From positions 1 to 64,000 of the forward strand of contig JAGWZE010000001.1 of assembly GCA_018969015.1 (NCBI GenBank): DNA of 64,000 bases, read 5' to 3'. Positions 20,653-41,353 of the stretch are shown piece after piece (position 1 is the first letter of the stretch; every line of letters begins with the position of its first letter). Under the pieces are notes generated by a model. The model was not told the DNA's origin, made no database searches, and saw only the letters and a program-made list of their open reading frames with translations. The position numbers and the translations under genes were made by a program. This stretch comes from Alphaproteobacteria bacterium. Its GTDB lineage: Bacteria > Pseudomonadota > Alphaproteobacteria > Caulobacterales > Aquidulcibacteraceae.

Positions 20653-20666
20653 TTGATTTTTGTCAA
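20653..20666 (+). promoter_or_regulatory. FNR/FixK-type box upstream of the pel locus
   Basis: TTGAT-TTTT-GTCAA fits TTGA-N6-TCAA and differs by one base from TTGAT-N4-ATCAA. Its centre is about 65 bases before the ATG of the first pel gene, in the divergent region shared with mgtA. A regulator with the cognate ETVSR recognition helix is encoded at 36931. Confidence 0.65.
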
Positions 20667-20724: not shown

Positions 20725-23700
20725 ATGGCAAGCCAATTCGGCGACATCACCCTCGACGGCTCTCTCCTCGACTGGTCGGCGGCCGATCTTTTGTGGAGCG
20801 CGGGAACGCAGCGCATCTACGGAAAGGTCGTCGGGAACGCGATGGTGTTCGCCGCGACGGGCGTCACGCCCGGCAGCACCTTCTGGCTGAACACGGACCT
20901 CAACGCGACGACGGGCTATCTGCTCGGCGGCCCGACGAATTCGGCCTTCGCCGCCGGCGCGGAGTTCAATGTGGACTTCACGACGGGCCAACCGTTGCTG
21001 TTCACGGGCGGCGCCGGACAAACGCTCGTCGGCCCCATCGACTTCGCACTCGGCGCCAATGGCGCCGTGGAGTTCGCCGTGCCGCTCACTGCGGTCGCTG
21101 CAAGCGCTGCGATGGTGCGTGTCGATCTCGGCAATACGCAGTTCCTTCCCAATACGTTCGCGATCGCCGCCGCCCCGGCGCAGCCCCCAACGTTTGGCGC
21201 AGTCACGCTTGATGGCGCGCTCTCGGACTGGTCTGCGGCGAATCGTCTGGATACGGGCGCATCCGGCGTCGCGGGGTACGAGCTGTATGGCCGCTTCGAG
21301 GGCGGCGCCTATGTGTTCGCGATCAAATCTGCGACGCCGATCGGCGAGAACACCACGCTCTGGCTCAATACTGATCAGAACCGCGCGACCGGGTATCAGA
21401 TTTTCGGGTTCGCGGGCGGCGCCGAATACAACGTCAATATCGGGGCGAATGGCCAGGCCGTACTCTTTACCGGCGCGGCCGGACAAAACCCGGTCTCGAT
21501 CGTTCCGATCAGCTACAGCGCCGATCGCACCGTCGCGGAGATCGCGGTCCCGGTCTCGCTCTTGGCCGGGGCGCCGAGCGTGGTCAACGTCTATGCCGAC
21601 GTGAACAACCAGACGTTCCTGCCCAACAGCTACACGACCTACACCTATACCGTTTCCAGCGTGGCGCCCCCGCCGACGCCCGGCGCGAGCTACGGCTCCA
21701 TCACCATCGACGGCGCATCGACGGATTGGACCGCGGCCGATCGGCTCGACGCGGTTGGCGGCGCGACGGGCTACGCTCTGTACGGAAAGGTCGTCGGCGG
21801 CGCGTTCGTGCTCGCGCTTGACGCCGGAACCGGAACGATCGGCCCCAACACCACCTTCTGGTTCAACACCGACCAGAACACCGCGACGGGATACAAAGTC
21901 TTCGGCTTCGCCGTCGGGGCCGAGTTCAACGTCAATTTCGACGCCAACGGCACGCCCGCCCTTTATGTCAACGGCGCGGGCGAAACGCTGCTTCCGGGCG
22001 CCGCGATCGACTGGCGCACGTCCGCATCCCACAGCTTCGTGGAATTCGCCATTCCCCTGGCGCAACTCCAGGCGCTTATCGGATCCACCCCGACGACCGC
22101 GAACGTCTATGTCGACGTCAACGACCAGACCTTCATTCCGGTCAGCTACACGAACTTCGCCTATACGCTCCACGCGAGCACGGCGCCGACGGCCGGGACC
22201 ACGATCCTGGACGGGTCGCTCAACGACTGGACGCAGCGCGATCGCCTCGACACCGCCTTCGGCGCCGTGGCGGGTCATGAGGTGTACGGACGCAGCGACG
22301 GGGATTACCTCGTCTTCGCGGTGAAAGCGCCGGGCCCCATCGGCGCGAACACGACCATCTGGCTGAACACGGATCTCAATGCCGCGACCGGCTTCCAGAT
22401 TTTCGGCGCCACCGGCGGCGCGGAGTTCAACATCAATTTCGACGCCGCCGGCGTGCCGCATCTCTACACGGGCGGCGCAGGCCAGACCCTCGTCGCGGGC
22501 GCGCAGGTGCTCTACGGGACGTCAGCGGATCACACGATCGTCGAAGTGGCCGTCGCCAAGGCCGCCCTGGGAGGCGCGACCTCGAGCAATGTCCTTCTCG
22601 ACGTGAACGACACGGTGTTCCTGCCGTCGAGCTATTTTGGTCCGCAGTTTCTCGTCGCGCCGCCGCCACCGCCGGTCGGCTCCGTGACGCTCGACGGCGC
22701 GCTCGGCGATTGGACGGCGGCGAACCGCATCGATCTGCCGGGAACGGGTGTTGCGGGATACGAAGTCTATGGCCGCGCCAGCGGCGACTCTTTCGTCCTG
22801 GCGCTCAAGAGCCCCGTCGCGATCGGCCCCGGCACCACCTTCTGGCTCAACGCCGACCAGAATCCCGCGACCGGCTATCAGGTGTTCGGCAATGCCGGGG
22901 GCGTGGAGTTCGCGGTCGAGTTCGGCGCGAACGGCGCGCCCGCGCTCTACGCCGTCAACGCGACGACCGGCGCGCTGACGCTCGTGAATGGCGCGCTTCT
23001 GAACGGCTTCTCCGCCGATCGAACGATCGTGGAGTTCGCGATCCCGAAGGCGCAAGTCAGCGCGCCGATCGAGCTGAACGTCCTCATCGACGTCAACAAC
23101 ACGACGTTCCTGCCCACGTCCTATACGGGCATGGCCTCTTACGAGATCGTCGATACGCTCTCTCTGCCGCCGCGGACGGACTTCACCCGCAAGGTCGCCA
23201 TCGTCTATTCGGACACGACCGCCGCCAAGTATTTCGGCCTCGCGGATGTCGACGCCAACAAGACGGGCTATTCCCAGCTCTTCATGACGGCGCAAAGCCA
23301 AGCGGCGGCCGCCGGCGTCCCCTACGACGTCATCAGCGAAAGCGATCTGACGAACCTCACCAAGCTCGCGCAGTACGACGCCATCGTGTTTCCGTCGTTC
23401 CGCTATGCGCCCTCCGCGCTCCAGAACCAGATCGCGAACACGCTCGAACTTGCCGCCGAGCAGTATCACGTCAGCCTGATCGCCGCCGGCGACTTCATGA
23501 CGAACGACGAGACCGGCGCGCTGATCGCCGGCGATCCCTACGCCCGCATGAAAGCGCTGTTCGATCTCACCCGCGTCGATGGCGGGACCGGGATCGTCGA
23601 CGTCAACGCCAGCGCGACGACCAATCCCGTGATGGAGGGGTATCAAGCCGGCGAATTGATCCGGCGCTACGCGGGCGCGCTCGGCACGGGCGTCGGGTGG

Positions 23701-26607
23701 TCAGCCTACGCCGACGCGACCCCCAGCGCCGGCCCCGCGCAAACGACCCTGGCGACGCAGACGATCAACGGCCGGTCCTTCAGCGCGGTCGTCGCCTCCG
23801 AGCCCGGCGGACGCAACGTGCATTTCGCAACCGAAGCGCTGCTCGGCGACAACAACCAGCTCCAGCACGCCATCGATTGGGCGGTGAATGGCGCGGGCGT
23901 CACGGCCGGCGTGCAGCTCAGTCGCGACAAGAGCATCCTCGCGTCGCGCACCGACATGGACCAGGCCATGGAGCTGGCCGATGTCTCGCCCCCCGGCGGC
24001 GGCCCTGGAATCTATGATCGCCTGTTGCCGATCCTCCAGGCGTGGAAGGACCAGTACAATTTCGTTGGATCGTACTTCGTCGACATCGGCGCCAACCCCG
24101 CGAACGATCAGGCGACGAACTGGGCTGTATCCGGGCCGATCTATCAAAAGATCATGGCGATGGGGAACGAGATCGGCACGCACACCTTCACGCACCCGGA
24201 CGATACGAACCTTCTCTCCCCCGCCGACATCGAATTCCAGTTCAACCAGAGCCAACTCCTTCTGGAGCAACAGCTGGGCGTACCGATCAACGGCGCCGCC
24301 GTGCCGGGCGCGCCGGAACGCCTGCCCACCTCCCTGCGCGAGATCCAGTACTTCGACTATCTGACCGGCGGCGGCTCGCTCGTCGGCGCGGGATATCCCG
24401 GCGCGTTCGGCTATCTCACGCCCGGCGTCCAGGACAAGGTCTATCTCGCGCCGAACATGAGCTTCGATTTCACGCTCGTCGGCTTCCAGGGAAAAACCGC
24501 CGATCAGGCCTATGCGGCGTGGCTCTCCGAGTTCAACGCGCTGACGGCGCACGCTGATACGCCCGTCGTGATCTGGCCGTGGCATGATTATGGCCCGACG
24601 ACGTGGAGTGTCGATCAGGGCGTCCCCTCGCCCTATACGCTGGCGATGTACACGAACTTCATCGCCGCCGCGGCGGCCTCCGGCGCCGAGTTCGTCACCA
24701 TGACGGATCTCGCGAAGCGGATCGAATCCATGGAAAAGGTCGGTCTGACGCTGTCCGTTTCCGGCAACATCGTCACGGCCAAGGTCGTGTCCGCGGATGC
24801 GGGCAAGTTCGCGCTTGATCTCGATCACCTTGGAACATCCGTCATCAAGAGCGTCCTGAACTGGTACGCCTATGACGGCGACAGCGTGTTTCTCCCGAAG
24901 AACGGCGGTGATTTCACGATCACGCTCGGCGCCGCGGCCGACGACGTGACCCACATCACCGCATTGCCGGCGCGCGCCGAGCTGATCTCATTGTCCGGGG
25001 ACGGCGCCAATCTCGCCTTCAGCGTCGTGGGCGAAGGCAAGGTCATCATCGACCTCAAGGGCGCGACGCCCGCAAGCGTCACCGGGGCCTCCATCGTGAG
25101 CCAGGTCGGCGATATCCTCACGATCGACCTCGGCGCGAATGGCGCCCACAGCGTTTCGATCGGCGTTCCGACCACGCCCGTCATCACGTCGAACGGCGGG
25201 GGCGCCACGGCGCAAGTCTCGATCGCGGAGAACACGACGAGCGTCACGACGATCACCGCGCTTTCGCCCACGGGTCTGCCGCTCACCTATTCGATCAGCG
25301 GCGGCGCCGACGCGGCGGCGTTCGTCATCAACAGCGCCACCGGGCAGCTTTCGATGGCGGTCGCGCCAGACTACGAGGCGCCAACCGACACCGGCGCCAA
25401 CAATGTCTATGACCTGATCGTCCGCGCAACCGACCAGGCCGGCGCCTTCGTAGCCCAGGCGATCGCCGTCGCCATCACCAACGTGCCGGGCCTCACGCTC
25501 ACGGGCAACGCATCCGCCAATGTCCTCACCGGCAGCGGTGAGGAAGACATCATCAGCGGCGGCGCCGGCAACGACACGCTCGACGGCCTCGGCGGCCCGG
25601 ATCGTCTGACCGGCGGAACCGGCGCCGATCGCGTCCTCGGCGGGGATGGCGCGGACACGTTCATCTACGCGATCGGCGACGGCGCCGACACCATGGACGG
25701 CGGCGCCGGCATCGATACGCTGATCGTCTCCGGCACGGCGGCCAGCGACACGCTCAACGTGATCTATGCGGGCGGCGTCCTCACGACGCTGGAGGGCGGT
25801 ACGCTGACGGGAATCGAGATCGTCACGGCCGATCTCGGCGCCGGCGCCAACACGATCACCTACGCCGGCACGCTCGTCGGCGTCAGCGTCAATCTCGCCA
25901 CCGGGGCGGCCTCGGGGTTTCAGTCGATCGCCAACATCTCGAACGCCACGGGCGGCAGCGGCGATGATCAGCTCACGGGGACGACGGCGGCCAATACGTT
26001 GACGGGCGGCGCGGGAAACGACGTGCTCGACGGCGGTGGCGGCGTCGATACGCTGATCGGCGGCGCAGGTGACGACACCTACATCACGGATGGCGGCGAC
26101 ACGCTCACCGAAGGCACGGGCGCCGGAACCGACACCGTGCGCAGCTCCGTGAGCTGGACGCTCGGCGCGAACTTCGAGAACCTTGTGCTGACGGGCGCGG
26201 CCAACATCAACGGCACGGGCAACGGCCTCAACAACGTCCTGACCGGAAACGCCGGCGCCAACGTCCTGACCGGCGGCGGCGGCAATGACCGGATCGACGG
26301 CGGCGCCGGCAACGACACGCTCAATGGCGGCACGGGCAGCGACACGTTCGTTCTCCAGGCCGGATTCGGCGCCGATACGATCACCGGCGGCTTCGACGCC
26401 AACCCAACCGGCGGCCAGGATCTGATCGACATCTCCGCCTACCATCTGACGCCCGCCGACATCGGCACGACGAGCGCCTTCGCGGTGTGGATCGAAGTCG
26501 TCGCCAACAACACGCTCGTCCATATCGGCGCGGACGTCCTCACCATCCTCGGCGTGAACGGGGTCGGGACGAATGCGATCACGTCGAGCGATTTCATTCT
26601 CGCCTGA
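20725..26607 (+). CDS. pelA: PelA-like polysaccharide deacetylase fused to carbohydrate-binding-like repeats and RTX repeats
   Basis: 1960 residues, ATG at 20725, no signal peptide. Residues 5-805 hold five repeats of about 150-165 residues, each with 'DGxLxDWxxAxR', 'TTFWLNTDQNxATGYQ' and 'VDVNNxTFLPxSY', resembling CBM9/DOMON-type sandwiches. About 820-1060 is a flavodoxin-like fold as in the PelA 'reductase-like' domain. About 1065-1340 is a NodB-type deacetylase with DxD (Asp1077, Asp1079), HTFTH (His1153, His1157) and 'PVVIWPWHDYGP'. A beta region, a cadherin-like repeat (about 1485-1590) and RTX blocks of GGxGxDxL type (about 1591-1880) follow. The RTX end without a Sec signal implies type I secretion; no exporter genes are in the window. 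The PelA hydrolase domain is absent and is encoded separately at 33793. Confidence 0.85.
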   Translation: MASQFGDITLDGSLLDWSAADLLWSAGTQRIYGKVVGNAMVFAATGVTPGSTFWLNTDLNATTGYLLGGPTNSAFAAGAEFNVDFTTGQPLLFTGGAGQTLVGPIDFALGANGAVEFAVPLTAVAASAAMVRVDLGNTQFLPNTFAIAAAPAQPPTFGAVTLDGALSDWSAANRLDTGASGVAGYELYGRFEGGAYVFAIKSATPIGENTTLWLNTDQNRATGYQIFGFAGGAEYNVNIGANGQAVLFTGAAGQNPVSIVPISYSADRTVAEIAVPVSLLAGAPSVVNVYADVNNQTFLPNSYTTYTYTVSSVAPPPTPGASYGSITIDGASTDWTAADRLDAVGGATGYALYGKVVGGAFVLALDAGTGTIGPNTTFWFNTDQNTATGYKVFGFAVGAEFNVNFDANGTPALYVNGAGETLLPGAAIDWRTSASHSFVEFAIPLAQLQALIGSTPTTANVYVDVNDQTFIPVSYTNFAYTLHASTAPTAGTTILDGSLNDWTQRDRLDTAFGAVAGHEVYGRSDGDYLVFAVKAPGPIGANTTIWLNTDLNAATGFQIFGATGGAEFNINFDAAGVPHLYTGGAGQTLVAGAQVLYGTSADHTIVEVAVAKAALGGATSSNVLLDVNDTVFLPSSYFGPQFLVAPPPPPVGSVTLDGALGDWTAANRIDLPGTGVAGYEVYGRASGDSFVLALKSPVAIGPGTTFWLNADQNPATGYQVFGNAGGVEFAVEFGANGAPALYAVNATTGALTLVNGALLNGFSADRTIVEFAIPKAQVSAPIELNVLIDVNNTTFLPTSYTGMASYEIVDTLSLPPRTDFTRKVAIVYSDTTAAKYFGLADVDANKTGYSQLFMTAQSQAAAAGVPYDVISESDLTNLTKLAQYDAIVFPSFRYAPSALQNQIANTLELAAEQYHVSLIAAGDFMTNDETGALIAGDPYARMKALFDLTRVDGGTGIVDVNASATTNPVMEGYQAGELIRRYAGALGTGVGWSAYADATPSAGPAQTTLATQTINGRSFSAVVASEPGGRNVHFATEALLGDNNQLQHAIDWAVNGAGVTAGVQLSRDKSILASRTDMDQAMELADVSPPGGGPGIYDRLLPILQAWKDQYNFVGSYFVDIGANPANDQATNWAVSGPIYQKIMAMGNEIGTHTFTHPDDTNLLSPADIEFQFNQSQLLLEQQLGVPINGAAVPGAPERLPTSLREIQYFDYLTGGGSLVGAGYPGAFGYLTPGVQDKVYLAPNMSFDFTLVGFQGKTADQAYAAWLSEFNALTAHADTPVVIWPWHDYGPTTWSVDQGVPSPYTLAMYTNFIAAAAASGAEFVTMTDLAKRIESMEKVGLTLSVSGNIVTAKVVSADAGKFALDLDHLGTSVIKSVLNWYAYDGDSVFLPKNGGDFTITLGAAADDVTHITALPARAELISLSGDGANLAFSVVGEGKVIIDLKGATPASVTGASIVSQVGDILTIDLGANGAHSVSIGVPTTPVITSNGGGATAQVSIAENTTSVTTITALSPTGLPLTYSISGGADAAAFVINSATGQLSMAVAPDYEAPTDTGANNVYDLIVRATDQAGAFVAQAIAVAITNVPGLTLTGNASANVLTGSGEEDIISGGAGNDTLDGLGGPDRLTGGTGADRVLGGDGADTFIYAIGDGADTMDGGAGIDTLIVSGTAASDTLNVIYAGGVLTTLEGGTLTGIEIVTADLGAGANTITYAGTLVGVSVNLATGAASGFQSIANISNATGGSGDDQLTGTTAANTLTGGAGNDVLDGGGGVDTLIGGAGDDTYITDGGDTLTEGTGAGTDTVRSSVSWTLGANFENLVLTGAANINGTGNGLNNVLTGNAGANVLTGGGGNDRIDGGAGNDTLNGGTGSDTFVLQAGFGADTITGGFDANPTGGQDLIDISAYHLTPADIGTTSAFAVWIEVVANNTLVHIGADVLTILGVNGVGTNAITSSDFILA

Positions 26608-26650
26608 TGCGCGCGCCCGCGCCGGTGCGCGGCCAAGAGGACGTCTCCGC

Positions 26651-27964
26651 ATGCTGCGTTTCGTCGTGTCCCCGCTCGTCGCCTTGCTCGCCGCCACGCT
26701 TTTGGCGACGCCAGCGCGGGCGCAATCGCAACACCTGGATGCGCCGCCGCCGATCACCGCAACGAACTCCGCGCAAGCGCCACAGACGAGCGACGCCGAT
26801 CCCCAGGCGCGCCTCGACATTCGCCAGGGCGTCGTCCGTGCACGCGCGTTCCTCGGCCTGCACGACTACCGCAACGCGCGGGCCGAGGTGGCGATCATTC
26901 TGGCCTCCCATCCCGACGAGGTCGGCGCGCTGCGCACGCGCGCCAGCATCGAGGAGGCGACGGGGCGCTGGCGGCAAGCCGCCGTCGATTGGGCGCGCGT
27001 CGCGACTCTCACGGCGGATCCGGCGGCTGCCGCGCGCCGCGACGCGCTCGTGCGCGCCCATCCCTCGTACGCCGGCCTCACCGGCTTCTTCGAGGGCTCC
27101 TCGGGCGCCGACGAAATGAGCGGCGTTCGCTTGACTTTCGCGCGCCGTCCTCTCGACGCGCCGGAATGGACCGCCGCGCTCGAGCACCGATCCGCCCACG
27201 CCGATCAGGCCACGCGCCTCGATGGATCCATCGGCCCCATCGAAACGAGTAGGCGCAAGCTCGACGTCGAGGTCGCTGACACGCTCGTAGCCGGGCGCGT
27301 TGGCCTCCGCCTCGTCGCCACCGACGACACACTCGGCGCGGGCGCGAGCTTCCGCCGCCTCCGCCCCTGGGGATTCGTCGAGGCGAGCGCCATGTACCAC
27401 GACCCCTACTGGCCCTACGCCGCCGCGCTCGCGAGCGACGCGACGTCGGATCATGTCGACTTTGGCGCCGACGTGACCCGTGGGCGTTGGTCCGTGCGCG
27501 GTCGTATCGGCGTCGCGACCTACGCTGTCGACGGCGAAGACGACGTTGCGCGATCCACGAGGGGCGCGCTGGCCATGGAGTACGCGTTCGGGGACCGCAC
27601 CGCGCCTGCGCCGTGGCGGCTTACGCTTGCCTTGGATCGGGAGGCGTTCTTCGCCGTCAAGCGCCGGCCGGGACCGGGCGGCGCGCCCTTCGCCCCGATC
27701 GACGTGGCCGACCGCTTCATTCTCTCCGCGGGGACGGCGAAAACCTTCGGCGATCCGGACCGACGACATTCCACGATCGCCTTCGGCTATCGCCGTGACA
27801 CCGAGAACGACACCCAGGGCCCGTATGGCTTCATCCTCACGGAAACGCCGATCGGCTCCAACGTCCGCCTTGGGTTGCGCGCCGAGTACAGCGACGTCGC
27901 GACGCGCGGCGTCTCCACCCAGCCCTATGGGTTCGCCGAAATCTACCTTCGAAGGACATTTTGA
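26651..27964 (+). CDS. pelB: PelB-type outer-membrane beta-barrel with short TPR-like start (stand-alone)
   Basis: 437 residues. The ATG at 26651 gives a clear signal peptide (MLRFVVSPLVALLAATLLAT, cut after PARAQ) with an AAGAGGA ribosome site. Residues about 45-135 are a short helical TPR-like stretch ('ARAFLGLHDYRNARAEVAII'). The rest alternates as an outer-membrane barrel and ends in 'EIYLRRTF', with the terminal Phe of a BAM signal. 'RDTENDTQGPYG' and repeated Arg/Glu/Asp strands suit a charged export pore. In Pseudomonas, PelB is one protein of about 1200 residues: a long periplasmic TPR followed by a barrel. Here the barrel is separate, and a TPR protein is encoded at 34709. Its place directly after pelA and before pelD supports the assignment, although family similarity is remote. 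Confidence 0.72.
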   Translation: MLRFVVSPLVALLAATLLATPARAQSQHLDAPPPITATNSAQAPQTSDADPQARLDIRQGVVRARAFLGLHDYRNARAEVAIILASHPDEVGALRTRASIEEATGRWRQAAVDWARVATLTADPAAAARRDALVRAHPSYAGLTGFFEGSSGADEMSGVRLTFARRPLDAPEWTAALEHRSAHADQATRLDGSIGPIETSRRKLDVEVADTLVAGRVGLRLVATDDTLGAGASFRRLRPWGFVEASAMYHDPYWPYAAALASDATSDHVDFGADVTRGRWSVRGRIGVATYAVDGEDDVARSTRGALAMEYAFGDRTAPAPWRLTLALDREAFFAVKRRPGPGGAPFAPIDVADRFILSAGTAKTFGDPDRRHSTIAFGYRRDTENDTQGPYGFILTETPIGSNVRLGLRAEYSDVATRGVSTQPYGFAEIYLRRTF

Positions 27965-27970
27965 CGCCGC

Positions 27971-27984
27971 TTGATCTTGATCAA
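27971..27984 (+). promoter_or_regulatory. Perfect FNR/FixK-type box in the pelB-pelD gap
   Basis: TTGAT-CTTG-ATCAA is an exact match to the FNR/FixK consensus, sitting in the 28-base gap between the barrel gene and pelD. It could place pelDEFG under a second, internal low-oxygen-type promoter, in which case the translation start of pelD may be the ATG at 28020 or 28086. Confidence 0.65.
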
Positions 27985-27992
27985 GCCCGGCG

Positions 27993-28970
27993 ATGCCCCC
28001 GACGTTCAGTGAATTCTCCATGGAATCCTCGAACGCTCCGTTTTCGGACTTTTCCTCACCTTCCAGCTCGCTTCGGCGCTGCGCCATGGAGATCGGCGTT
28101 TCGCTCGCCGTCCTCGTCGCTCTCGACCGGCTCGTGTTCCACGGCGCGCTTGCGACGCTCGCCCCGCATCCGTTCTGGATCATCGTCCTGTTCGCCGCGG
28201 TCCAGTATGGCGCCTGGGGCGGGGCGATCGGCGCGGCGGCGGCCTCCCTCGCGCTGTACGCCCGCGGCGTCCCTCACCGCGGCGCCGAGGACTTTTTCGA
28301 GTACACCTCAACGATCCTGGCGCTTCCCGCGATGTGGCTGCTCGCCGCCGTTGCGTTCGGCGGCCTGAGATCGCTTCACATCCGCAAGTTGCGCGCGCTC
28401 GAAGCCCGGCTGGACGAAACTCTGAGTCACGCCAACACCATCGCAACGGGGTTCACCCGCGCGTGCGGGGAAATCAAGCGCCTGGAGGCGCGGATCGCCA
28501 GCGACACCGCAACCGTCAACACGATCATTCGCGACATCGCGGCGATCGGCGCCGGAGGCCGCGACACCGTGCGCCAGAGTCTCTCGGCCTTCGCACAACA
28601 CTGCCTCGGCACACCCAACATCACGATTTGGATCTTCTCGTCTGATCCCGCCGCCGCCGATGGCACGCTCGACGGGCTGGAGCTTTCGCAGGATGTGACG
28701 ACGACGCTGTTCGAGCAGAGGCGGGCGGCCGTGATCGCGGGCCTGCCGGACGATATCGCCGTCGCGGCGCCGATCGTCGCTGCCGACGACATAAGCGGAC
28801 TCCTGATCGTCTGGCGGATCGACGATCTCAGCCCGACCGATGCGGCGCATCTGGGCCGGCGCGCGGAGCTGCTCGGGCTTGCGCTCGGCGTTCTGCTGGA
28901 GCCGCAATTGTCTCCTTCTCCGGTCGTCGCTTTCCACCCCGCCTTCAAGAGGGTTTCGCGTGAGTCCTGA
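27993..28970 (+). CDS. pelD: PelD-like inner-membrane GAF protein without GGDEF domain
   Basis: 325 residues from the ATG at 27993; ATGs at 28020 and 28086 are alternatives, the latter directly before the first membrane segment. Hydrophobic segments at about 32-50, 57-88 and 105-125 are followed by a coiled coil (about 128-170) and a GAF fold (about 178-300). Gene order before pelE and pelF, and this architecture, match PelD, the synthase's regulatory subunit. Pseudomonas PelD is longer and ends in a degenerate GGDEF domain that binds c-di-GMP through RxxD. That domain is missing here. An RIDD tetrad (275-278) sits inside the GAF and is probably fortuitous. If it is PelD, activation must differ from the Pseudomonas scheme. 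Confidence 0.72.
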   Translation: MPPTFSEFSMESSNAPFSDFSSPSSSLRRCAMEIGVSLAVLVALDRLVFHGALATLAPHPFWIIVLFAAVQYGAWGGAIGAAAASLALYARGVPHRGAEDFFEYTSTILALPAMWLLAAVAFGGLRSLHIRKLRALEARLDETLSHANTIATGFTRACGEIKRLEARIASDTATVNTIIRDIAAIGAGGRDTVRQSLSAFAQHCLGTPNITIWIFSSDPAAADGTLDGLELSQDVTTTLFEQRRAAVIAGLPDDIAVAAPIVAADDISGLLIVWRIDDLSPTDAAHLGRRAELLGLALGVLLEPQLSPSPVVAFHPAFKRVSRES

Positions 28971-29859
28971 GCGTTTTCCCTGGGGCGACGTCGCGGCGCT
29001 GGGGGCGCTCGCGGCCGGCCTGAGCCTGATCGACGGTCTCGCCGGGACGATGAGCGCCCGGGGCGCGGCGCCGGAATGGCTTCCTCTCGTGGTGCGCCTC
29101 TCCGCCGCGGCGCTGGCGGCCTGCGCGATCGCCGGCTTCCGGGACGAAAGAACACGCGGACTCGCGTCTCAACTCGCGATTTGGATGGCGATCGCCGGCG
29201 CACTGGGCGCCGCCATCTGGGTCGCCGTCGTCGCCGCGGAGGCCGTCCGCGGCGAACCACGACCGCTCTTCTCAGCGGCGATCGACGCCGAAATCGACGA
29301 CGATCCCGTCGAGGCCCTCGCGGCGATCGCCGGATCGATCCAGGACGGCCGGGTTCGCCTTGACGGCGCGAGCACGGTGCAGCCCCTGTGCGACGTCCTC
29401 GCGGACGCGTCGACCGCATCTCAACTTCGCGCCCTTGCCGCGCTCGCACAGAACTACCACGCCGGCATGGCGCATGCGCTTTCGCTGGCGCTGAGCCGCG
29501 GCCAATCCTCCGTACGCGTTCTTGCAGCCACGGCGCTCGCTAAGCTCAGCCAGAGCTATGGCGCTCGCGTCGACGCACGCGCCGCGCACCCGCCCGCGAC
29601 AACGGCACAATGGGTCGCGCTCGGACAGTCACGGCTTGATTTTGCCCTGTCCGGGCTCTTGAACGACGATCGCCGGTCGACGGTCCTCGAACAGGCCGAA
29701 GTGGCGTTCGCCGCCGCGCTCGCGCTCGATGCAAGCGTCACGTCGGCTCAGGTCGGCGCCGCCGCCAGCCGCCGCGCTCGGCGCACACGCCCTCTCGTCG
29801 CAATTGCCCCACAGCCGAAGCCGGTGTCCACGTTTGGTCAAATGAGGCCCGTGCAATGA
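28960..29859 (+). CDS. pelE: PelE-like membrane protein with helical repeats
   Basis: 299 residues from a GTG at 28960 that overlaps the end of pelD by 11 bases. Three hydrophobic segments lie in the first 105 residues ('AALGALAAGLSLIDGLAG', 'LVVRLSAAALAACAIAG', 'LAIWMAIAGALGAAIWVAVV'), followed by a cytoplasmic helical region with TPR-like alpha-alpha units up to about 280. Pseudomonas PelE has a similar size and plan (membrane helices then TPR) and helps bind PelD, PelF and PelG into the synthase complex. Sequence similarity is weak, so the call rests on order, size and topology. Its TGA overlaps the ATG of pelF (ATGA), indicating coupled translation. Confidence 0.72.
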   Translation: MSPERFPWGDVAALGALAAGLSLIDGLAGTMSARGAAPEWLPLVVRLSAAALAACAIAGFRDERTRGLASQLAIWMAIAGALGAAIWVAVVAAEAVRGEPRPLFSAAIDAEIDDDPVEALAAIAGSIQDGRVRLDGASTVQPLCDVLADASTASQLRALAALAQNYHAGMAHALSLALSRGQSSVRVLAATALAKLSQSYGARVDARAAHPPATTAQWVALGQSRLDFALSGLLNDDRRSTVLEQAEVAFAAALALDASVTSAQVGAAASRRARRTRPLVAIAPQPKPVSTFGQMRPVQ

Positions 29860-31340
29860 CCAGGGCCGACGTCTGCCTGATCCTTGAAGGCGCCTATCCG
29901 TTCGTGGCGGGCGGCGTTTCGGGATGGACGCAAGCGCTGATCGAAGCGGCGCCGCACTTGAGCTTCCACCTCGTTTCGATCATGCCGGATCAGACACCGC
30001 GTGAAGCGAAGTACACCGTCCCGCCCAATGTCGTGGCCTGGACCACGCTCGCCCTCGACAGCGGCGCTCCGGGCCGGCGCGCGACAAGCGCCGATCATCG
30101 CCTCGTCGCCGAGGTCGGCGCGCAGGTGGAATCCCTGATCCTGCGGCCAACGACCAGCGACCTGAACCGGCTCGTGCAAACCCTCGCCGCGAGCAACATC
30201 GGCCAGTCCGCCCTTCTGGACAGTCGCGCCGGATGGCGCGCGATGGAGGCGGCGGCCACGCGGTTTCTTCCGGATGCGCCGCTTCTGGACTTCTTCTGGA
30301 CATGGCGTGTCATGCTGCGCAGCCTGATCGCGATCCTCGGCGCGCCGCTGCCAGATGCCTCCGTCTATCATGCGATCTCGACCGGCTATGCCGGCCTCCT
30401 CGGCGCGCGCGCGGCGCTGACGACCGGACGGCCTTTGGTCCTGACGGAGCATGGAATATACACCAACGAACGACGCATCGAGCTGTGCCTCGCCGACTGG
30501 CTCTACGACACCGGCGCCCAGGGATATTCCATCACCGAGCGCCTGTGCGCCCTGCGCGACTTCTGGACCGCGCTCTTCGCTTCGTTGTCGCGCCTCACCT
30601 ACGATGCGGCCAGCGAGATCGTGACGTTGTATCGTGGCAATCAGGTGCTTCAGCTCGCGGACGGCGCCGCGCCGGACAAGCTGCGCGTGATCCCGAACGG
30701 CGTCGACGTCGCGCGCTGGTCGGCGGTTCGCCGCATCCCGAGCCCCCTTCGCCGCCCCACCATCGCTCTGATCGGCCGGGTGGTGCCGATCAAGGATGTC
30801 CGCACCTTCATCCTTGCCTGCGCCGCGCTCCGCCGGCAGGCGCCGAACCTCGAGGCCTTGATCATCGGCCCCGACGATGAAGATCCCACCTACGCCGCCG
30901 ATTGCCGCAAGCTCGCGCGCGCCGAGGGCTTGGACTCCTGCCTGCGCTTCACCGGTCGCGCCGACGTGGCGTCCTTCCTCCCGCGCATCGACGTCTGTGT
31001 GCTGACGAGCATCTCCGAAGCGCAACCGCTCGTGGTCCTTGAGGCGGGCGCCGCCGGCATCCCGAGCGTGACGACCGATGTGGGATGCTGCCGCGACCTG
31101 ATCGAAGGATCGCCCGGCGACGACGTTACGGGCCACGGCGGGATCGTCACGCCCATCGGCGATTCCGCGATGATCGCGCGGGCTGTGGGGCGCCTGCTGG
31201 CCGACGATGCGTTGCGCCTGCAGATGGGCGAGGTGATGCGCCGTCGCGTCCATCGCTCGTATGACAAGACGCGGATCGACCGGATCTACAATGATCTCTA
31301 CGCCGCCTATCTGTCCGGCGGCGCGGCGAAGGTTGCTTGA
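29856..31340 (+). CDS. pelF: PelF glycosyltransferase (GT4, UDP-GalNAc-type polymerase)
   Basis: 494 residues, very close to PelF of other bacteria. It opens with 'DVCLILEGAYPFVAGGVSGW', the PelF hallmark, and carries 'LTEHGIYTNERRIEL', 'VIPNGVDVARW', 'ALIGRVVPIKDVRTF' and the GT4 EX7E motif 'SEAQPLVVLE' (Glu388, Glu396). It has a GT-B fold without membrane segments or signal peptide and is expected to be cytoplasmic. It should polymerise the Pel chain from UDP-GalNAc/UDP-GlcNAc and pass it to PelG. ATGA overlap with pelE and a single base before the pelG GTG show a tight operon. This is the surest marker that the locus is Pel. Confidence 0.95.
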   Translation: MTRADVCLILEGAYPFVAGGVSGWTQALIEAAPHLSFHLVSIMPDQTPREAKYTVPPNVVAWTTLALDSGAPGRRATSADHRLVAEVGAQVESLILRPTTSDLNRLVQTLAASNIGQSALLDSRAGWRAMEAAATRFLPDAPLLDFFWTWRVMLRSLIAILGAPLPDASVYHAISTGYAGLLGARAALTTGRPLVLTEHGIYTNERRIELCLADWLYDTGAQGYSITERLCALRDFWTALFASLSRLTYDAASEIVTLYRGNQVLQLADGAAPDKLRVIPNGVDVARWSAVRRIPSPLRRPTIALIGRVVPIKDVRTFILACAALRRQAPNLEALIIGPDDEDPTYAADCRKLARAEGLDSCLRFTGRADVASFLPRIDVCVLTSISEAQPLVVLEAGAAGIPSVTTDVGCCRDLIEGSPGDDVTGHGGIVTPIGDSAMIARAVGRLLADDALRLQMGEVMRRRVHRSYDKTRIDRIYNDLYAAYLSGGAAKVA

Positions 31341-31341
31341 G

Positions 31342-32760
31342 GTGGCGGGCATTGGCTTCTCCCTCGAGCGTATGGCGGCGTCCGACGACCTGACGAACGT
31401 GTCGGGGGCCTATGTCGCGGGGATGCTGGTGGTCTCGGGGCCCTGGATCTTCACGGCGCTGGCAATTGCGGGTGTGTCGACGATCGCGGACGCATCGCAG
31501 GCGATGATCCAGGACTTCCGGACCATCCTGATCTACGATTTCCTCCTTTCCAGCATGATCTCGGCGCCGCTCGCCCTTTCGGTCACGCGCTTCCTGGCGG
31601 ATGAACTTTACGCGAAACGGCGCGGCGCGCTGCAGAGCGCCTGGGTCGTCGCAGTGGGACTGTTCGCGCTGATCGGCTCGATCGTCGTGGCTCCCGTTTT
31701 CGGCGTTCTGCTCAAGGGGCCGCTCGCCACGGCGGCCACGACGACGTTCTTCCTCCTCGGCGCCCTGTGGCTGACGATCCCCTTCGCCGGTGTGCTGCGG
31801 CGCCACGTCTCGATCACTGTGGCGTTCCTGGCGGGGATGTCGGTCACGATCGCGCTCGCACACGCTCCGCGCACGCACGATGTCGCCACGCTCCTCAACG
31901 CCTTCAGCGTCGGCCTTGCGGTCGCCGTTGGCGTCCTCGTCATGCGCACCACGGCGGAGTTTGGCGCGTCGGTCAGGTTCGAACCGCGCTTGCTGCGCGC
32001 CTACGCCCGCTACTGGGAGCTGCCGGTCATCGGTCTGTGCACCACGCTTGGCGGCTGGGTCGACAAGATCATCATGTGGGCCAGCGGCGGGAACGGCGTG
32101 GTCACGCTGAGCGCGGGCGGCTTCCCCACGATGCCGGATTATGACTCCGCCCTGTTCTGGGCCCAGCTTACGGCCATCCCGGTCATGGCGGTCTTCTTCG
32201 TCAACGTCGAACCGAGTTTCTACCGGCTCTACCGACGCTTCTACGGATCATTCGGCCGCAAGGCCTCGCAGCGCGAAGTGCGGCTTCGCCAGAAGGCGCT
32301 GGATGACTTTGCAACGAGAAGCGCGCTGGCGCTCCTTGGCGCCGGAATCCTGATCACCGCCACCGCGGTGATCTTCAGCTACGAAGCCGTTGCGCATTTT
32401 GATCTCCAGCCGGGCCTCGCGGGAACGCTGCGCGCAGCGCTGTTCGGCGTCGCGTTCCAGACAGCCGCCCTGGTCTGCCTGTGCTTTCTCCTCTATTTCG
32501 ATCTGCGGCGGCACGCGCTCGCCATCGCTCTCGTCGGCGTCGTGACCAACGCCGGATTCACGCTCGTTCTCCTGCCCTTTGGGCCTGCGCTTCACGGATA
32601 CGGGTACCTGGCTTCGGCGGTGACGACGTTCCTCTTTGCGTTTGCAACGCTCACGCGGGAGACGGCATGGCTCACCTACCACGCCTTCGTCACGACGAAC
32701 GAGTCTGCACGCCCCTCAACGCACGGTGCGCGGAGCGCCGTGCGACCCGATCCGATTTGA
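31342..32760 (+). CDS. pelG: PelG inner-membrane exopolysaccharide transporter
   Basis: 472 residues from a GTG at 31342, one base after the pelF stop. The start is fixed by the family N-terminus, here 'MAGIGFSLERM', followed by 'VSGPWIFTALAIAG'. About twelve hydrophobic segments cover the length, as expected for the MOP/Wzx-like PelG family. 'PDYDSALFWAQLTAIPVMAVFFV' and 'LYRRFYGSF' are typical family stretches. It should form the membrane channel that moves the PelF product to the periplasm. The epimerase gene follows after about 100 bases, so the operon may continue. Confidence 0.94.
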   Translation: MAGIGFSLERMAASDDLTNVSGAYVAGMLVVSGPWIFTALAIAGVSTIADASQAMIQDFRTILIYDFLLSSMISAPLALSVTRFLADELYAKRRGALQSAWVVAVGLFALIGSIVVAPVFGVLLKGPLATAATTTFFLLGALWLTIPFAGVLRRHVSITVAFLAGMSVTIALAHAPRTHDVATLLNAFSVGLAVAVGVLVMRTTAEFGASVRFEPRLLRAYARYWELPVIGLCTTLGGWVDKIIMWASGGNGVVTLSAGGFPTMPDYDSALFWAQLTAIPVMAVFFVNVEPSFYRLYRRFYGSFGRKASQREVRLRQKALDDFATRSALALLGAGILITATAVIFSYEAVAHFDLQPGLAGTLRAALFGVAFQTAALVCLCFLLYFDLRRHALAIALVGVVTNAGFTLVLLPFGPALHGYGYLASAVTTFLFAFATLTRETAWLTYHAFVTTNESARPSTHGARSAVRPDPI

Positions 32761-32861
32761 CATAGCGCAATCTCGCACCGTTCGCGTCCCCTATCGTCGC
32801 GCGGCTGGCGACCTTCCCGTCCGGGGCCGGTCGTTCGATCAGCAAAGCGGATTTCCCGGTC

Positions 32862-33848
32862 ATGGCGCGATTTCTTGTTACGGGCGGGGCAGGCTTCATC
32901 GGGTCTCATCTGGTCGATGACCTTCTGCGGAACGGGCACGACGTGCGGGTTCTGGACAATCTGTCCACGGGCTCTCGCCAGAATGTTTCTCCGGATGCGG
33001 AGTTTCTCTTTGCGGACGTTCGTGACGCCGAGGCGGTCCGCGCCGCCATGGCAGGCGTCGACGGCTGCTTCCATCTCGCGGCGATCGCTTCGGTCCAGGC
33101 CGCCAACACCGATTGGTTCGGCACACACCAGACCAACCTCAGCGGCGCCGTCGCCGTCTTCGAGGGCGCCCTGCGCGCCCGTCAAGGCCCTCTCCCCGTC
33201 GTCTACGCTTCGTCCGCGGCGGTCTACGGCGAGGCTCGGCGCCATCCGCTGACGGAGCGTGCGCCGACGCGTCCGATCACCGCCTATGGCGCGGACAAGC
33301 TGGGATGCGAGCTCCACGCCGCCGCCGCCGCGAGGACGCATGGCGTGAGCACCGTCGGGCTGCGCTTCTTCAACGTGTACGGGCCGCGCCAGGACCCGCG
33401 ATCGCCCTATTCCGGCGTCATCTCGATCTTCGCCGAGCGTCTCCTGCGCGGCCTGGGCGTCACGATCTTCGGCGATGGCGCGCAGACGCGCGACTTCGTA
33501 TTCGTGGGCGACGTCTGCAAGGCGCTCCAGGCGGCGATGCACGGCGCTTCATGTGGCCGTTCGCTCGTGTTCAATGTCTGCACGGGGCGAGAGACGGCCG
33601 TTCGTGATCTCGCCGACACGATCGCCCGGCTCACGGGCGCGCGCAGCGCGCTCGCGTTCGCGCCGCCGCGCGCAGGGGACATCCACCGATCCGTCGGCGA
33701 TCCGTCCTATCTGGCGCGTGTCCTCGGCGTGTCGCCTTCAACACCGATCGAGACGGGCCTTGTCGAAACCCTGAGCTGGATGGCGAACACGCATGCCTCC
33801 TCTGCCGAACCCCTCCCCGTCGCCGCGCGCAATCCTGTCGCGGCGTAG
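32862..33848 (+). CDS. NAD-dependent UDP-hexose(amine) 4-epimerase, PelX-like
   Basis: 328 residues. Extended SDR with 'TGGAGFIGSHLV', 'DNLSTGSR', 'YASSAAVYGE' and the catalytic pair in 'AYGADKLGCE' (YxxxK), and 'RFFNVYGPRQDP', all typical of GalE/Gne/WbpP epimerases. Within a Pel locus the fitting role is interconversion of UDP-GlcNAc and UDP-GalNAc to supply PelF, as PelX does in Pseudomonas protegens. Substrate choice between Glc/Gal and GlcNAc/GalNAc forms cannot be settled by eye. The 3' end overlaps the next gene by 56 bases, supporting co-transcription. Confidence 0.85.
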   Translation: MARFLVTGGAGFIGSHLVDDLLRNGHDVRVLDNLSTGSRQNVSPDAEFLFADVRDAEAVRAAMAGVDGCFHLAAIASVQAANTDWFGTHQTNLSGAVAVFEGALRARQGPLPVVYASSAAVYGEARRHPLTERAPTRPITAYGADKLGCELHAAAAARTHGVSTVGLRFFNVYGPRQDPRSPYSGVISIFAERLLRGLGVTIFGDGAQTRDFVFVGDVCKALQAAMHGASCGRSLVFNVCTGRETAVRDLADTIARLTGARSALAFAPPRAGDIHRSVGDPSYLARVLGVSPSTPIETGLVETLSWMANTHASSAEPLPVAARNPVAA

Positions 33849-34719
33849 CCTGATGGGCCTTGCCGGTCTGTTGGGGCTGGGCCTTCGTGCAGCGCCGGCC
33901 GCGGCGCGCCAAACGCCGGGCGCGCGGCGACGCATTCCAAGCGATATCGCGTGGGCCGCATACTACGGATCGATGGCGCCGCCGGACGCCTTCGGCGCCT
34001 ACGCGCTCGTCGTTCTCGATCCCAATTACCCCTTTCCCATAACCGACGTGACCGCATGCGGCGCGATGGCGCTCGGGTATGTCTCGGTCGGCGAGTTCAG
34101 CACGACGGGCCGCTTCGCGCCGCAGCTTGCAGACACGAGCCCCCTCGTGAAGGAGAACCCGAATTGGCCCGGCAGCTTCGTCGTCGACGTGCGGTCGCCG
34201 TCCTGGCGACGATTCATTGTCGAGACGGTCACGCCGCAGGTGCTTGCGCAGGGCTTCACCGGGATCTTTCTCGACACGCTGGATTCGGCGTTGCACCTGG
34301 AGGAACTGGAGCCTGACCGCTACCGTGGCATGCGGACAGCCGCCGTTTCGCTCCTCGCCGCGATCCGAGCGCGGTATGGCGACATCCCGATCATGATGAA
34401 CCGCGGCTATCCGCTCCTGCGCGACGTCGATACGATCATCGATGCGGTGCTCGCCGAAAGTCTCGTGACGACCTACGACTTCGCGACACGGCGTTACGGC
34501 CTCGCGACAGACGACGCCGTCGCCAGCCACGCCGCGCTTCTCGATCCGGCACGCACGGCTAGTCCGCCTTTGCCCGTCTTCAGCCTCGACTACTGGGATC
34601 CCGAAGACATCGACGGTGTCCGCGCAATCTACGCCCGCGAACGCGCGATGAACCATACGCCTTATGTCGGCACGATCCTGCTGGATCGTGTCCTTCCGGA
34701 GCCCCCTCGTGGCGCGTGA
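33793..34719 (+). CDS. Stand-alone PelA-type glycoside hydrolase (GH114/GH166-like) with Tat signal
   Basis: 308 residues. The ATG at 33793 gives a twin-arginine signal ('LSRRSLMGLAGLLGLGL' then APAAARQ); a start at 33853 would remove the arginines. The mature part is a TIM barrel with 'GYVSVGEFS', 'GFTGIFLDTLDSA', 'MMNRGYPLLRDV' and 'AVLAESLVTTYDF', which closely parallel the hydrolase domain of PelA. Glu222 in 'AESL' corresponds to the residue I recall as catalytic in PelA. Related domains cut alpha-1,4-galactosaminidic bonds. In Pseudomonas this domain is fused to the deacetylase; here it is separate and should be exported folded to the periplasm. Its end overlaps the next GTG. Confidence 0.85.
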   Translation: MPPLPNPSPSPRAILSRRSLMGLAGLLGLGLRAAPAAARQTPGARRRIPSDIAWAAYYGSMAPPDAFGAYALVVLDPNYPFPITDVTACGAMALGYVSVGEFSTTGRFAPQLADTSPLVKENPNWPGSFVVDVRSPSWRRFIVETVTPQVLAQGFTGIFLDTLDSALHLEELEPDRYRGMRTAAVSLLAAIRARYGDIPIMMNRGYPLLRDVDTIIDAVLAESLVTTYDFATRRYGLATDDAVASHAALLDPARTASPPLPVFSLDYWDPEDIDGVRAIYARERAMNHTPYVGTILLDRVLPEPPRGA

Positions 34720-36667
34720 ATCCACTCTCCCTACAGCTTGGCCCCTGCACACCTTGGCGTTGGCGGTGGCGACTGCAGCGCTGGCCGGAATCCTGACGGT
34801 CTCGCTCGTTCCCTCCCGCATGGAGCAGCGCGCCGTCGCCATGCGCGAAGCGACGATGCGGGCGGACACGGCCTATGCGAACAACCGCCCGCGCGAAGCG
34901 ATGGAGATCCTTCGCGCCTCGCCGGAGTCACGGCGGCCCGGAGCGGACTATATGCGGGCGATGCTGCGCTACCTGGGCGCCGCGGGCGACGTCGATGCAC
35001 ACTTCGCGCTGCTTCACGGATCGTTCGGCCGGTACGCCTCGCCGCGCGACCTCCGCTCCGCCATCGATCTCTACACGCGACGCAACCGGCCGGCCCTCGT
35101 CGTCGAGACGCTGCGCGATCTCGTCGCGCTCGACGCCGCCGCGCCGGACGAAATGCTCCGGCTGGCGCGGGCCCTCGCCGATCGCGGCGACACGATCGGC
35201 GCCGCCACGCTGGCCCGCCGGCTGGCGCCGGGCCTCCGCCCGGGCGACACCCCGGCCGATGGCGTTTTTCTCATCAAAGCTCTGGCGGCGGCGGGTGACG
35301 TCGACGCCGCGCGGCGGTTCGCGCAGCGCTGGCTTGGACCAAGCGTCGCTACATCCGTTGTGCTCGCCGTCGCACCGGCGATCGTGGAAGCCGGACATGC
35401 CGATATCGCGGTCGAGGTGCTGCGGCCGCGCGCGCAGGACTCACCGAAAGCCCAGGCCGCGCTGGACTACGCGCTGCGTGTGGCGGCATCGACAAACCCA
35501 GAGATCCGCGGGGAGCTCACACGCGGCCTCCTTGCGGCACGCGCGCACGCCACGGGAGCGTCGCGCACGGTCATCGCGCACGACCTCTTCGCCTATGGCG
35601 ATTTCGATCTCGTGCGCGCCACGATGACCCGTGACGGGTCCTGGCGTGAGCCGCCCGAGCGCGACGCCTTCATCGCAGCCATGCGCGCGCATGGCCAGGC
35701 TCCAGCGCTCCGCGATCTCCTGATCGCCGAAGCACGAGCGGGGAGCGTCGAGAAGCAACGCCGCACCGCGCGCGACCTCGCCGCGATCGGGTTCCCTGCG
35801 GCGGCATGCGCCGTTCTCGCCCAGGCCGCCGCCCGCACCGGGCCGGACAGCCCCGCGACGCAGGACCTGCTGTACCTCTGGCGCGCGCACGGCATCGCCC
35901 CCGATACGGAATGGCTCAAGGCGCAAATCGAAGGCGGCGACGACGGCGAGGCCGCGCGCTGGGTGCAACGCTTCGCCGAAGCCACCTCCACGGACGCCGC
36001 GCTTGCGCTTCTCGCGCGCCTCGACACCGCGAGGTCGCGCCCGTCTCTGGCCGTGCTCCGTACACGGTTCCTGGGCTGGCGCGGTCCGTCCCCGGAACTC
36101 CGCGCCGTTCTAGACGCCGCCGTCAGACTGCCGTTGACGCCCGGTGAGGCCGGAGAGCTGCTTTCTATCGCGTGCGCCGTCGGAGACGACGACGCCGTGC
36201 GCGCGCTTGCAGTGACCGTTGGACCGCCGCGCACGTCGGCCGCCCGCTCGTGCCGTGCGCGCGTCGCGCTCGAAGCCGCGCACGCGGCCCAGCGTCGCGG
36301 CGCCCTTGACGCAGCCGTTGCGGGCTACCGCGAGGCCGCCAGCTTCGCGCCGCTCGGAAGCCGCGACCTGTTCGACTTTGCCTCCGCACTCGAACCGTCG
36401 AGCGCGCTGGCGGCGCAGGACATGTACCGATTGGCGCTTGCCCGCCTTCCGCGCCCGGAGCAGCCGCCCAAACCGCACACGGAAGTTCTGCGGGCGGCGC
36501 TCCTCGTCCGGCTTGGCCATCCGCGCGAGGCGCAGGCCGCTCTCGAACAGCTCGTCGCCAGCAACGCGGACAATGCCGAACTCCGCACGGTCCTGGCCGA
36601 GATTTACGTCGATTCCGGAGCTTACCGATCGGCGCTCGCGCTGACGCGCCCGCAAGCGCCACACTGA
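34709..36667 (+). CDS. Membrane-anchored TPR protein, stand-alone PelB TPR region
   Basis: 652 residues from a GTG at 34709 that overlaps the hydrolase stop, with GGAG eight bases upstream. One uncleaved hydrophobic helix (about 13-33, 'ALAVATAALAGILTVSLV') should anchor it in the inner membrane with the remainder in the periplasm. The rest is a long alpha-solenoid of TPR-type units, for example 'TAYANNRPREAMEILRASPE', 'LARALADRGDTIGAATLARR' and, near the end, 'LLVRLGHPREAQAALEQLVA'. Pseudomonas PelB starts with just such an anchored TPR, which binds PelA and leads polymer to the barrel. Here no barrel follows. With the barrel gene at 26651 it appears to form a split PelB. Confidence 0.75.
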   Translation: MARESTLPTAWPLHTLALAVATAALAGILTVSLVPSRMEQRAVAMREATMRADTAYANNRPREAMEILRASPESRRPGADYMRAMLRYLGAAGDVDAHFALLHGSFGRYASPRDLRSAIDLYTRRNRPALVVETLRDLVALDAAAPDEMLRLARALADRGDTIGAATLARRLAPGLRPGDTPADGVFLIKALAAAGDVDAARRFAQRWLGPSVATSVVLAVAPAIVEAGHADIAVEVLRPRAQDSPKAQAALDYALRVAASTNPEIRGELTRGLLAARAHATGASRTVIAHDLFAYGDFDLVRATMTRDGSWREPPERDAFIAAMRAHGQAPALRDLLIAEARAGSVEKQRRTARDLAAIGFPAAACAVLAQAAARTGPDSPATQDLLYLWRAHGIAPDTEWLKAQIEGGDDGEAARWVQRFAEATSTDAALALLARLDTARSRPSLAVLRTRFLGWRGPSPELRAVLDAAVRLPLTPGEAGELLSIACAVGDDDAVRALAVTVGPPRTSAARSCRARVALEAAHAAQRRGALDAAVAGYREAASFAPLGSRDLFDFASALEPSSALAAQDMYRLALARLPRPEQPPKPHTEVLRAALLVRLGHPREAQAALEQLVASNADNAELRTVLAEIYVDSGAYRSALALTRPQAPH

Positions 36668-36930: not shown

Positions 36931-37686
36931 ATGATCGAGGGCGTCGACCTGGGTTTTTCGGTCATTCGTCTTTCCGGAAAAACGGCCGCCGGGCATGCAG
37001 GCGGTGACGACGCCGGCGGATCGGCAGACGCTTCCGCCTCTCCCCTGCAGGTCCTTCAGACGCATGCGCCGCATGTCGTGCGCGTGGCGCCGGCCGGGCG
37101 TCATCTGTCGATGGAAGGGGTCCCCATGGGGCACATTCTCGGCGTCCTTTCCGGCACGCTACGGTGCTTCCGCATGACCGCGGACGGCCGCCGTCACATC
37201 TCGCGGTTTTCTGTCGCAGGGGACATCATCGGGCTTTGCCCGCTTGGTGTGCCGCGGCACTCCACGGAAGCGATCAATGACGCGCGGATCGCGTTCTTCC
37301 GGGTCGACACGATCGAGGCCGCGCTTCGTACGAACGATCTCGTGCGCGACGCGATCATGAATGCGCTCGCCCTCGAGCTGAACGACGGCGCGCGTTCCCA
37401 GACGCGCTTGGGCTGCTTCAGCGCCGAACAGCGCGTCGCAGACTTTCTGCTCGGCATTCCAAACGCAGCAACCTCGTCCTGCACCATCGAGATGCCGCGC
37501 GCCGACATCGCCGATCATCTCGGGATCACGATCGAAACCGTGAGCCGCGCCCTCAACCGCTTCGCGAAGATGGGCCTCATCGAGCTCACGAATCCTCACC
37601 AGTTCCGGATCCCGAGCGCGTCGCGCCTGCGCCGCCTCATCCAGGGAGATTCGTTCGAGGCGGGCGGCCTTCGCGGGGCGGGATAA
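36931..37686 (+). CDS. Crp/Fnr-family (FixK-like) transcription regulator
   Basis: 251 residues. An unusual Gly/Ala/Asp-rich N-terminus of about 45 residues precedes the cyclic-nucleotide-binding-like barrel ('PAGRHLSMEGVPMGHILGVL', 'FSVAGDIIGLCPLG'). The dimer helix is followed by a winged HTH with 'PRADIADHLGITIETVSRAL'. The ETVSR recognition helix is the FNR/FixK form that reads TTGA...TCAA. The N-terminal cysteine cluster that holds the oxygen-sensing Fe-S centre in FNR is absent, so it is FixK-like and would need another input, such as a two-component system. It lies directly downstream of the pel locus, which holds two such boxes; control of pel is inferred. Confidence 0.88.
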   Translation: MIEGVDLGFSVIRLSGKTAAGHAGGDDAGGSADASASPLQVLQTHAPHVVRVAPAGRHLSMEGVPMGHILGVLSGTLRCFRMTADGRRHISRFSVAGDIIGLCPLGVPRHSTEAINDARIAFFRVDTIEAALRTNDLVRDAIMNALALELNDGARSQTRLGCFSAEQRVADFLLGIPNAATSSCTIEMPRADIADHLGITIETVSRALNRFAKMGLIELTNPHQFRIPSASRLRRLIQGDSFEAGGLRGAG

Positions 37687-41197: not shown

Positions 41198-41353
41198 GGC
41201 GCCCGGCTTACGCGCCCGCTGGGCGGCTTGGCTAGCCCCCCGCCGCCCGGCCGCGCGCGGTCCGCGCCGGCATGAACGGGGGTTGAACGCCGCGCTCAGG
41301 CGGCGCTCAGGCGCGGCGCCCGATAACCGCCGCCACATTCGATGGAGACCGAC

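Follow-up and report, generated by a model that had tools for sequence, protein, structure and literature searches.

Two candidate operators of the FNR/FixK class stand ahead of the two transcription units of a pel locus in the window analysed here, a stretch of 64,000 nucleotides, and a regulator gene of the matching type is found at the end of the same locus. We consider it probable that this regulator (36931-37686) would bind both box 1 (20653) and box 2 (27971) and most likely activate both units, so that it would serve as an orphan and largely locus-specific switch for Pel. Box 1 would drive unit 1, which holds the deacetylase/RTX gene and the TPR-barrel gene, and box 2 would drive unit 2, with pelD, pelE, pelF, pelG, the epimerase gene, the GH114 gene and the TPR gene; activation of both units would take place most likely from class II-like positions. 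Here we infer binding, activation (as opposed to repression) and a transcription start near 28019. Regulators of the FNR/FixK class are controllers of respiration and microaerobic metabolism. The regulator in the window would have lost or left such a respiratory or stress regulon to become a switch of Pel production, and probably a normally respiratory regulator has been re-used for switching on a biofilm polymer. The leading candidates for the signal, taken from the neighbourhoods of its orthologs, would be NO, redox state and low oxygen.

Box 2 (TTGATCTTGATCAA, 27971-27984, no strand assigned) was located by motif search in the gap separating the TPR/barrel gene from pelD. The preliminary description of this DNA had reported a perfect FNR/FixK box in a 28-base intergenic gap, and both statements held. 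The exact 14-mer is present, and 28 bp separate the upstream stop codon (27962-27964) from the first in-frame ATG of pelD (27993), with the box lying 6 bp past the stop codon and 8 bp ahead of the ATG. The box is contained in a longer palindrome of 18 bp with 8-bp arms, GCTTGATC-TT-GATCAAGC (27970-27987), whose core it forms. Motif search also gave a second candidate operator, box 1 (TTGATTTTTGTCAA, 20653-20666, likewise without assigned strand), which conforms to TTGAYN4RTCAA and was absent from the preliminary description. It lies in a divergent gap, where 59 bp separate it from the start codon of the first pel gene (ATG 20725) and 182 bp from that of a divergent P-type cation ATPase gene (17835-20471, minus strand). 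The gap is upstream of both genes, and box 1 could also serve the ATPase gene. Both boxes are exact TTGAY-N4-RTCAA inverted repeats, and both are intergenic and situated ahead of a transcription unit. The target of FnrL ahead of coxI in Rhodobacter sphaeroides, TTGATctggATCAA, was mapped experimentally (PMC2908626), and FnrL/FNR sites have the same operator as that described here, including the extended C...G symmetry. Judged on its sequence, box 2 is very probably a real operator of the FNR/FixK class, and likely one that stands at a second pel promoter.

The locus consists of two units, each with a consensus box ahead of it (unit 1, 20725-27964; unit 2, 27993-36667), and all of its genes are on the plus strand. 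The first gene of unit 1 (20725-26607) was assigned as the deacetylase part of PelA from a polysaccharide deacetylase domain and RTX repeats. Its product is a secreted-type RTX/cadherin-type protein of 1960 aa with homologs in Methylobacterium pel loci, and the start at 20725 is consistent with the N-termini of the homologs in two of them (L057 and L058). The second gene (26573-27964) encodes TPR repeats and a presumed outer-membrane barrel, resembles the C-terminal part of PelB and has a homolog in L053; its reading frame overlaps the previous gene, and its likely start is 26651. Unit 2 begins with pelD (27993-28970, alternative starts 28020 and 28086), whose product has a transmembrane and a GAF-like region only, followed by a pelE-like gene (28960-29859) whose GTG start overlaps the pelD stop, by pelF for a GT4 glycosyltransferase (29856-31340; 437 bits with the NCBIfam PelF model, cut-off 100) and by the gene of the exporter PelG (31261-32760; 297 bits with Pfam PelG), the true start of which is probably near 31340. 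Domain matches identified the remaining genes as those of a sugar-nucleotide epimerase/dehydratase (32862-33848), a GH114/TM1410-type glycoside hydrolase corresponding to the hydrolase part of PelA as a separate gene (33793-34719) and a TPR protein similar to the TPR part of PelB (34664-36667). PelF and PelG, the pair expected of a Pel locus, are thus both present. Since the genes of unit 2 mostly overlap or nearly touch, with the exception of a 101-bp gap before 32862, the gap ahead of pelD is a natural place for a second promoter. The internal promoter proposed earlier for pelDEFG therefore stands as the boundary of a second unit, running from pelD-pelE-pelF-pelG onward, and has to be amended in one respect: with box 1 at 20653 the control is not solely internal. 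As a box precedes unit 1 as well, it is probably the entire locus that is controlled.

Like the Pel systems of Pseudomonas aeruginosa and Bacillus cereus, the locus has clear PelF and PelG, PelD- and PelE-like proteins, and deacetylase and glycoside-hydrolase functions. It differs from them in a PelA split into an RTX deacetylase and a separate GH114 protein, in a PelD without GGDEF domain, and in the FixK-type boxes and regulator. The division of PelA functions between the deacetylase/RTX protein (20725-26607) and the GH114 protein (33793-34719) recurs in the Methylobacterium loci L057 and L058. Two other genes of the surroundings were recorded: a CheB-CheR-PAS-HWE histidine kinase fusion closely upstream of the locus (14645-17854), and, about 4 kb past it, a small secreted protein with curlin repeats (41342-41746, PF07012), a possible second matrix component.

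The gene at 36931-37686 (plus strand) encodes a FixK-type regulator of the Crp/Fnr superfamily with Pfam HTH_Crp_2 and cNMP_binding domains, the presumed ligand of both boxes. Its recognition helix, ITIETVSR (E..SR), is near identical to the LTLETVSR of Bradyrhizobium FixK2 (PDB 4i2o), which is also its best solved relative (E 5.5e-20). FNR is defined by four cysteines that coordinate a [4Fe-4S] cluster, three of them near the N-terminus, and regulators in which these four residues are missing count as FixK; the alphaproteobacterial FNR, FixK and DNR groups recognise virtually identical sites (PMC2908626). The 36931 protein is free of cysteine over its first ~75 residues, so that the N-terminal cluster of FNR proteins is absent, and by the published definition this FNR/FixK-type helix-turn-helix protein would belong to the FixK group and not to FNR. 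NCBIfam FixK (NF050806) was its best model, with 87 bits under a cut-off of 300, and the protein is therefore not called FixK. It shares with the FixK group (Bradyrhizobium FixK2, Caulobacter FixK) the E..SR helix, the TTGAT-N4-ATCAA operator and the lack of Fe-S cysteines, and differs in its score, in its place at a pel locus with no adjoining FixLJ, and in sites that lie at biofilm genes and not at the cbb3 operon. A protein search of the genome, at the sensitivity used, detected no other FNR/FixK-type protein, and the helix of the sole other HTH_Crp_2 protein above the cut-off, GASREKVNR, is of the CRP type. The choice of the 36931 protein as the matching regulator was thus borne out, and it is the sole candidate found for the two boxes, as predicted from its helix.

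The nearest homologs of the 36931 protein, at 40-46% identity, were found in the related genomes G036, G152 and G252. Its grouping with them was well supported in a six-row tree and only moderately at the key fork of a 33-row tree, some rows of which were fragments. These orthologs adjoin a DUF488 gene and variously genes for RIC/YtfE iron-sulfur repair, a truncated globin, an Rrf2-family regulator, a peroxiredoxin and a superoxide dismutase, several of these names having been assigned by reading the translated sequence. In G036, two boxes were observed close to the ortholog, one exact (TTGATACACATCAA) and one near-consensus, between divergent ribonucleotide-reductase-related genes (L186, 15129-15254); the exact one is ahead of a class II ribonucleotide reductase gene. 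In addition to the ortholog, these genomes encode a FixL-FixJ-FixK set of the canonical kind. In G036 and G152 it lies near ccoNOQPGHIS; the contig of G252 ends before such an adjacency would show. The genome of the window, G000, carries a ccoNOQPGHIS operon as well (C23:65001-84000, locus L197), and a loss of the cbb3 oxidase was ruled out by the presence of ccoN. Unlike in the relatives, no FixLJK adjoins this operon, and no FixLJ was seen among the genes beside the 36931 regulator. The control of the cbb3 oxidase operon that is expected of FixK was not found, there being no box with up to one mismatch upstream of ccoN in this genome. Taken from sequence comparison, the family background points to NO, redox or low-oxygen stress, and in its own genome the regulator looks like an orphan with its clearest sites at pel. 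The existence of orphan regulators with changed sets of targets has been proposed (PMC2908626).

These observations bear on whether the locus is under strict oxygen control, that is, whether an internal promoter of pelDEFG is activated at low oxygen in the manner of FNR or of FixLJ-FixK. The class of the box, the FixK-like regulator and the cbb3 oxidase encoded in the genome speak for such control. Against it, the regulator lacks Fe-S cysteines, FixLJ adjoins neither its gene nor cco, no near-consensus box is present at cco (classically the target of low-oxygen control), and the orthologs occupy stress clusters in genomes that encode a canonical FixK as well. We regard strict oxygen control as possible, if rather doubtful, and the term 'oxygen-responsive' used in the preliminary description does not follow, given the missing N-terminal cysteine cluster, the lack of a visible FixL/FixJ gene next to the regulator or the cbb3 operon and the nitrosative- and oxidative-stress genes around the orthologs.

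The geometry of the boxes was considered with the class II spacing taken as -41.5. Box 1 would then give a start at about 20701 and a 24-nt leader. From box 2 the start would fall at about 28019, beyond the ATG at 27993 and directly ahead of the in-frame ATG at 28020; since it would be downstream of 27993, this suggests that the start codon of pelD is more likely the one at 28020, with a leaderless transcript, than the one at 27993, or that a different geometry applies. A sigma-70 scan detected no convincing -10 hexamer at class I or class II distance from either box, and only weak 3-of-6 hexamers could be picked out by eye. The same facts would suit a box 2 that acts as a repressor site or roadblock, blocking read-through from unit 1, covering the ribosome-binding region of pelD, or both: the box is placed tightly between the stop codon and the ATG at 27993, and the -10 hexamer was not found. 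However, box 1 is placed upstream in the ordinary way, and activation is the usual effect of FNR/FixK sites of such quality. We therefore consider repression or a roadblock unlikely.

Could the boxes be random palindrome matches, that of pelD lying in an unremarkable intergenic gap? We searched the genome of the window (3.40 Mb, 69 contigs) for the motif and calculated expected counts from Markov models of order 1-3 trained on ~190 kb of it, with selected sites outside the window masked; the statistics thus rest on genome-wide pattern searches and ~190 kb of sampled sequence, and coding or intergenic status was assigned with a non-standard, custom-made gene finder based on codon usage. Exact TTGATN4ATCAA palindromes occurred twice, compared with 0.6-1.3 expected. 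The other copy (C8:18054) is inside a 170-aa reading frame, and it was rejected as a member of the regulon because it is coding. For intergenic DNA the expectation was 0.10-0.17 for the exact motif and 0.014-0.029 for the extended form TTGATCNNGATCAA, with one observed in each case. The claim that such a site seldom arises by chance consequently failed for the bare motif, whose genome-wide frequency is about as expected and which we rejected as proof, and stood for the intergenic context. The looser form TTGAYN4RTCAA has five sites in the genome. Two are coding, on C8 and C23, and the latter (C23:51119), within an AsmA-like gene, was also rejected as a regulon member; the three others are intergenic and include the two boxes of the pel locus (20653 and 27971). 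The remaining one, on C29, is ahead of an M16 peptidase gene and shows that some consensus sites arise without obvious sense. With one mismatch or none from TTGATN4ATCAA there were 39 palindromes, 34 of which were judged to be coding or at a gene junction (33 flagged by the script and one that spans the junction of two genes and had been called intergenic by it). The five intergenic ones comprised the two of the pel locus, the one before the M16 peptidase gene and two others. The gaps of the pel locus amount to ~670 bp compared with ~410 kb of total intergenic DNA, and by our own arithmetic the probability that either of the other two intergenic consensus sites also lands in these gaps is ~0.3%. 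This clustering of sites in the pel locus is stronger evidence than the rarity of the motif.

Relatives offered few loci for comparison. PelF was detected above the cut-off in two of 398 genomes of the order, and PelD, among 61 relatives, only in the genome of the window and as one weak match. We compared 80 pel loci across GTDB genomes, 39 of them with a recognisable PelD. A box at the corresponding position was found in none of the 39, all of them distant and non-congeneric loci with a PelF identity of no more than about 52%; conservation in relatives, the test that the preliminary description had itself set, thus went against the box in the distant loci available. No FixK-type gene was found beside pel in any of the 80 loci. 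A different Crp-family gene occurs within 10 kb of pel in 4/80, and those at the pel loci of Methylobacterium, Sulfitobacter and Blastochloris were rejected as equivalents, since their helices are of other types and an exact consensus box is absent. In the closest locus, L053, whose contig is also that of G381:C270, no gap separates the pelD frame from the one upstream of it: the two directly adjoin or overlap. Two Methylobacterium loci have a response-regulator-like gene with receiver-like first residues directly before pelD (L055, 6940-7716; L057, 7013-7789), which suggests that pelD starts a separately controlled unit there. A chance origin of the box would agree with its absence from distant relatives and with the genome-wide count of the exact motif. 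It is decidedly improbable in view of the low intergenic expectations and of a single locus that holds two of the three intergenic consensus sites together with the sole FNR-type gene. Given two boxes and a regulator gene in one locus, the data favour an arrangement that is lineage-specific rather than fortuitous.

The Pel polymer is controlled via binding of c-di-GMP to PelD. The PelD of the window (325 aa) ends after the GAF-like region, and the degenerate GGDEF domain with RxxD I-site expected of PelD was not found; full-length PelD proteins in our alignment retain a further domain with the RxxD motif. A PelD without the C-terminal GGDEF and RxxD was also observed in other alphaproteobacterial loci (L053, L055, L057, L058, L059 and L086, Methylobacterium and Blastochloris included). 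Such a PelD has been described in streptococci (PMC7112168), and, as far as we found, it has been published for streptococci only. The 36931 protein might likewise respond to c-di-GMP, in which case the boxes would couple pel to this messenger and not to gas or redox. There is precedent in Bcam1349 of Burkholderia cenocepacia, which is reported to be a c-di-GMP effector and a Crp/Fnr regulator of exopolysaccharide (PMC3584217), and transcriptional input could substitute for the missing GGDEF domain. Bcam1349 and Clp of Xanthomonas, a further c-di-GMP-responsive protein, agree with our case in being Crp/Fnr-superfamily proteins over exopolysaccharide genes and differ in responding to c-di-GMP and in belonging to other sub-families. 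The 36931 protein is closest to FixK2/FNR and not to Clp-type proteins, and its orthologs sit beside NO and oxidative-stress genes; a c-di-GMP-responsive regulator is accordingly very improbable here. We suggest only tentatively that pel might have exchanged its post-translational control by c-di-GMP for a captured orphan FixK-type regulator, one that would report NO, redox or oxygen and no longer run respiration, with the matrix polymer as its main output. Other loci with a GGDEF-less PelD are without FixK boxes, and thus a transcriptional replacement of c-di-GMP control would be conjectural.

Least probable of all is that the 18-bp palindrome acts as an RNA hairpin near the pelD start on translation or mRNA processing: GCUUGAU-CUUG-AUCAAGC would be able to pair, but the region folds no better than shuffled sequences (z -0.77), the terminator scan gave no intrinsic terminator there, and box 1 and the matching regulator would be left unexplained.

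In the open-licence literature, a search for pel together with Fnr, Anr or FixK yielded no description of a pel locus under a regulator of FixK type. In the organism studied here, pel includes the gene of the sole FNR/FixK-type regulator that the genome search detected, the best sites of this regulator are at pel, and the PelD of the locus is without the c-di-GMP receptor domain. If confirmed, control of both pel units by the 36931 regulator would be a compact example of a rewired regulator, in line with the 'orphan regulators' predicted earlier (PMC2908626), and would directly link gas or redox sensing to matrix production.
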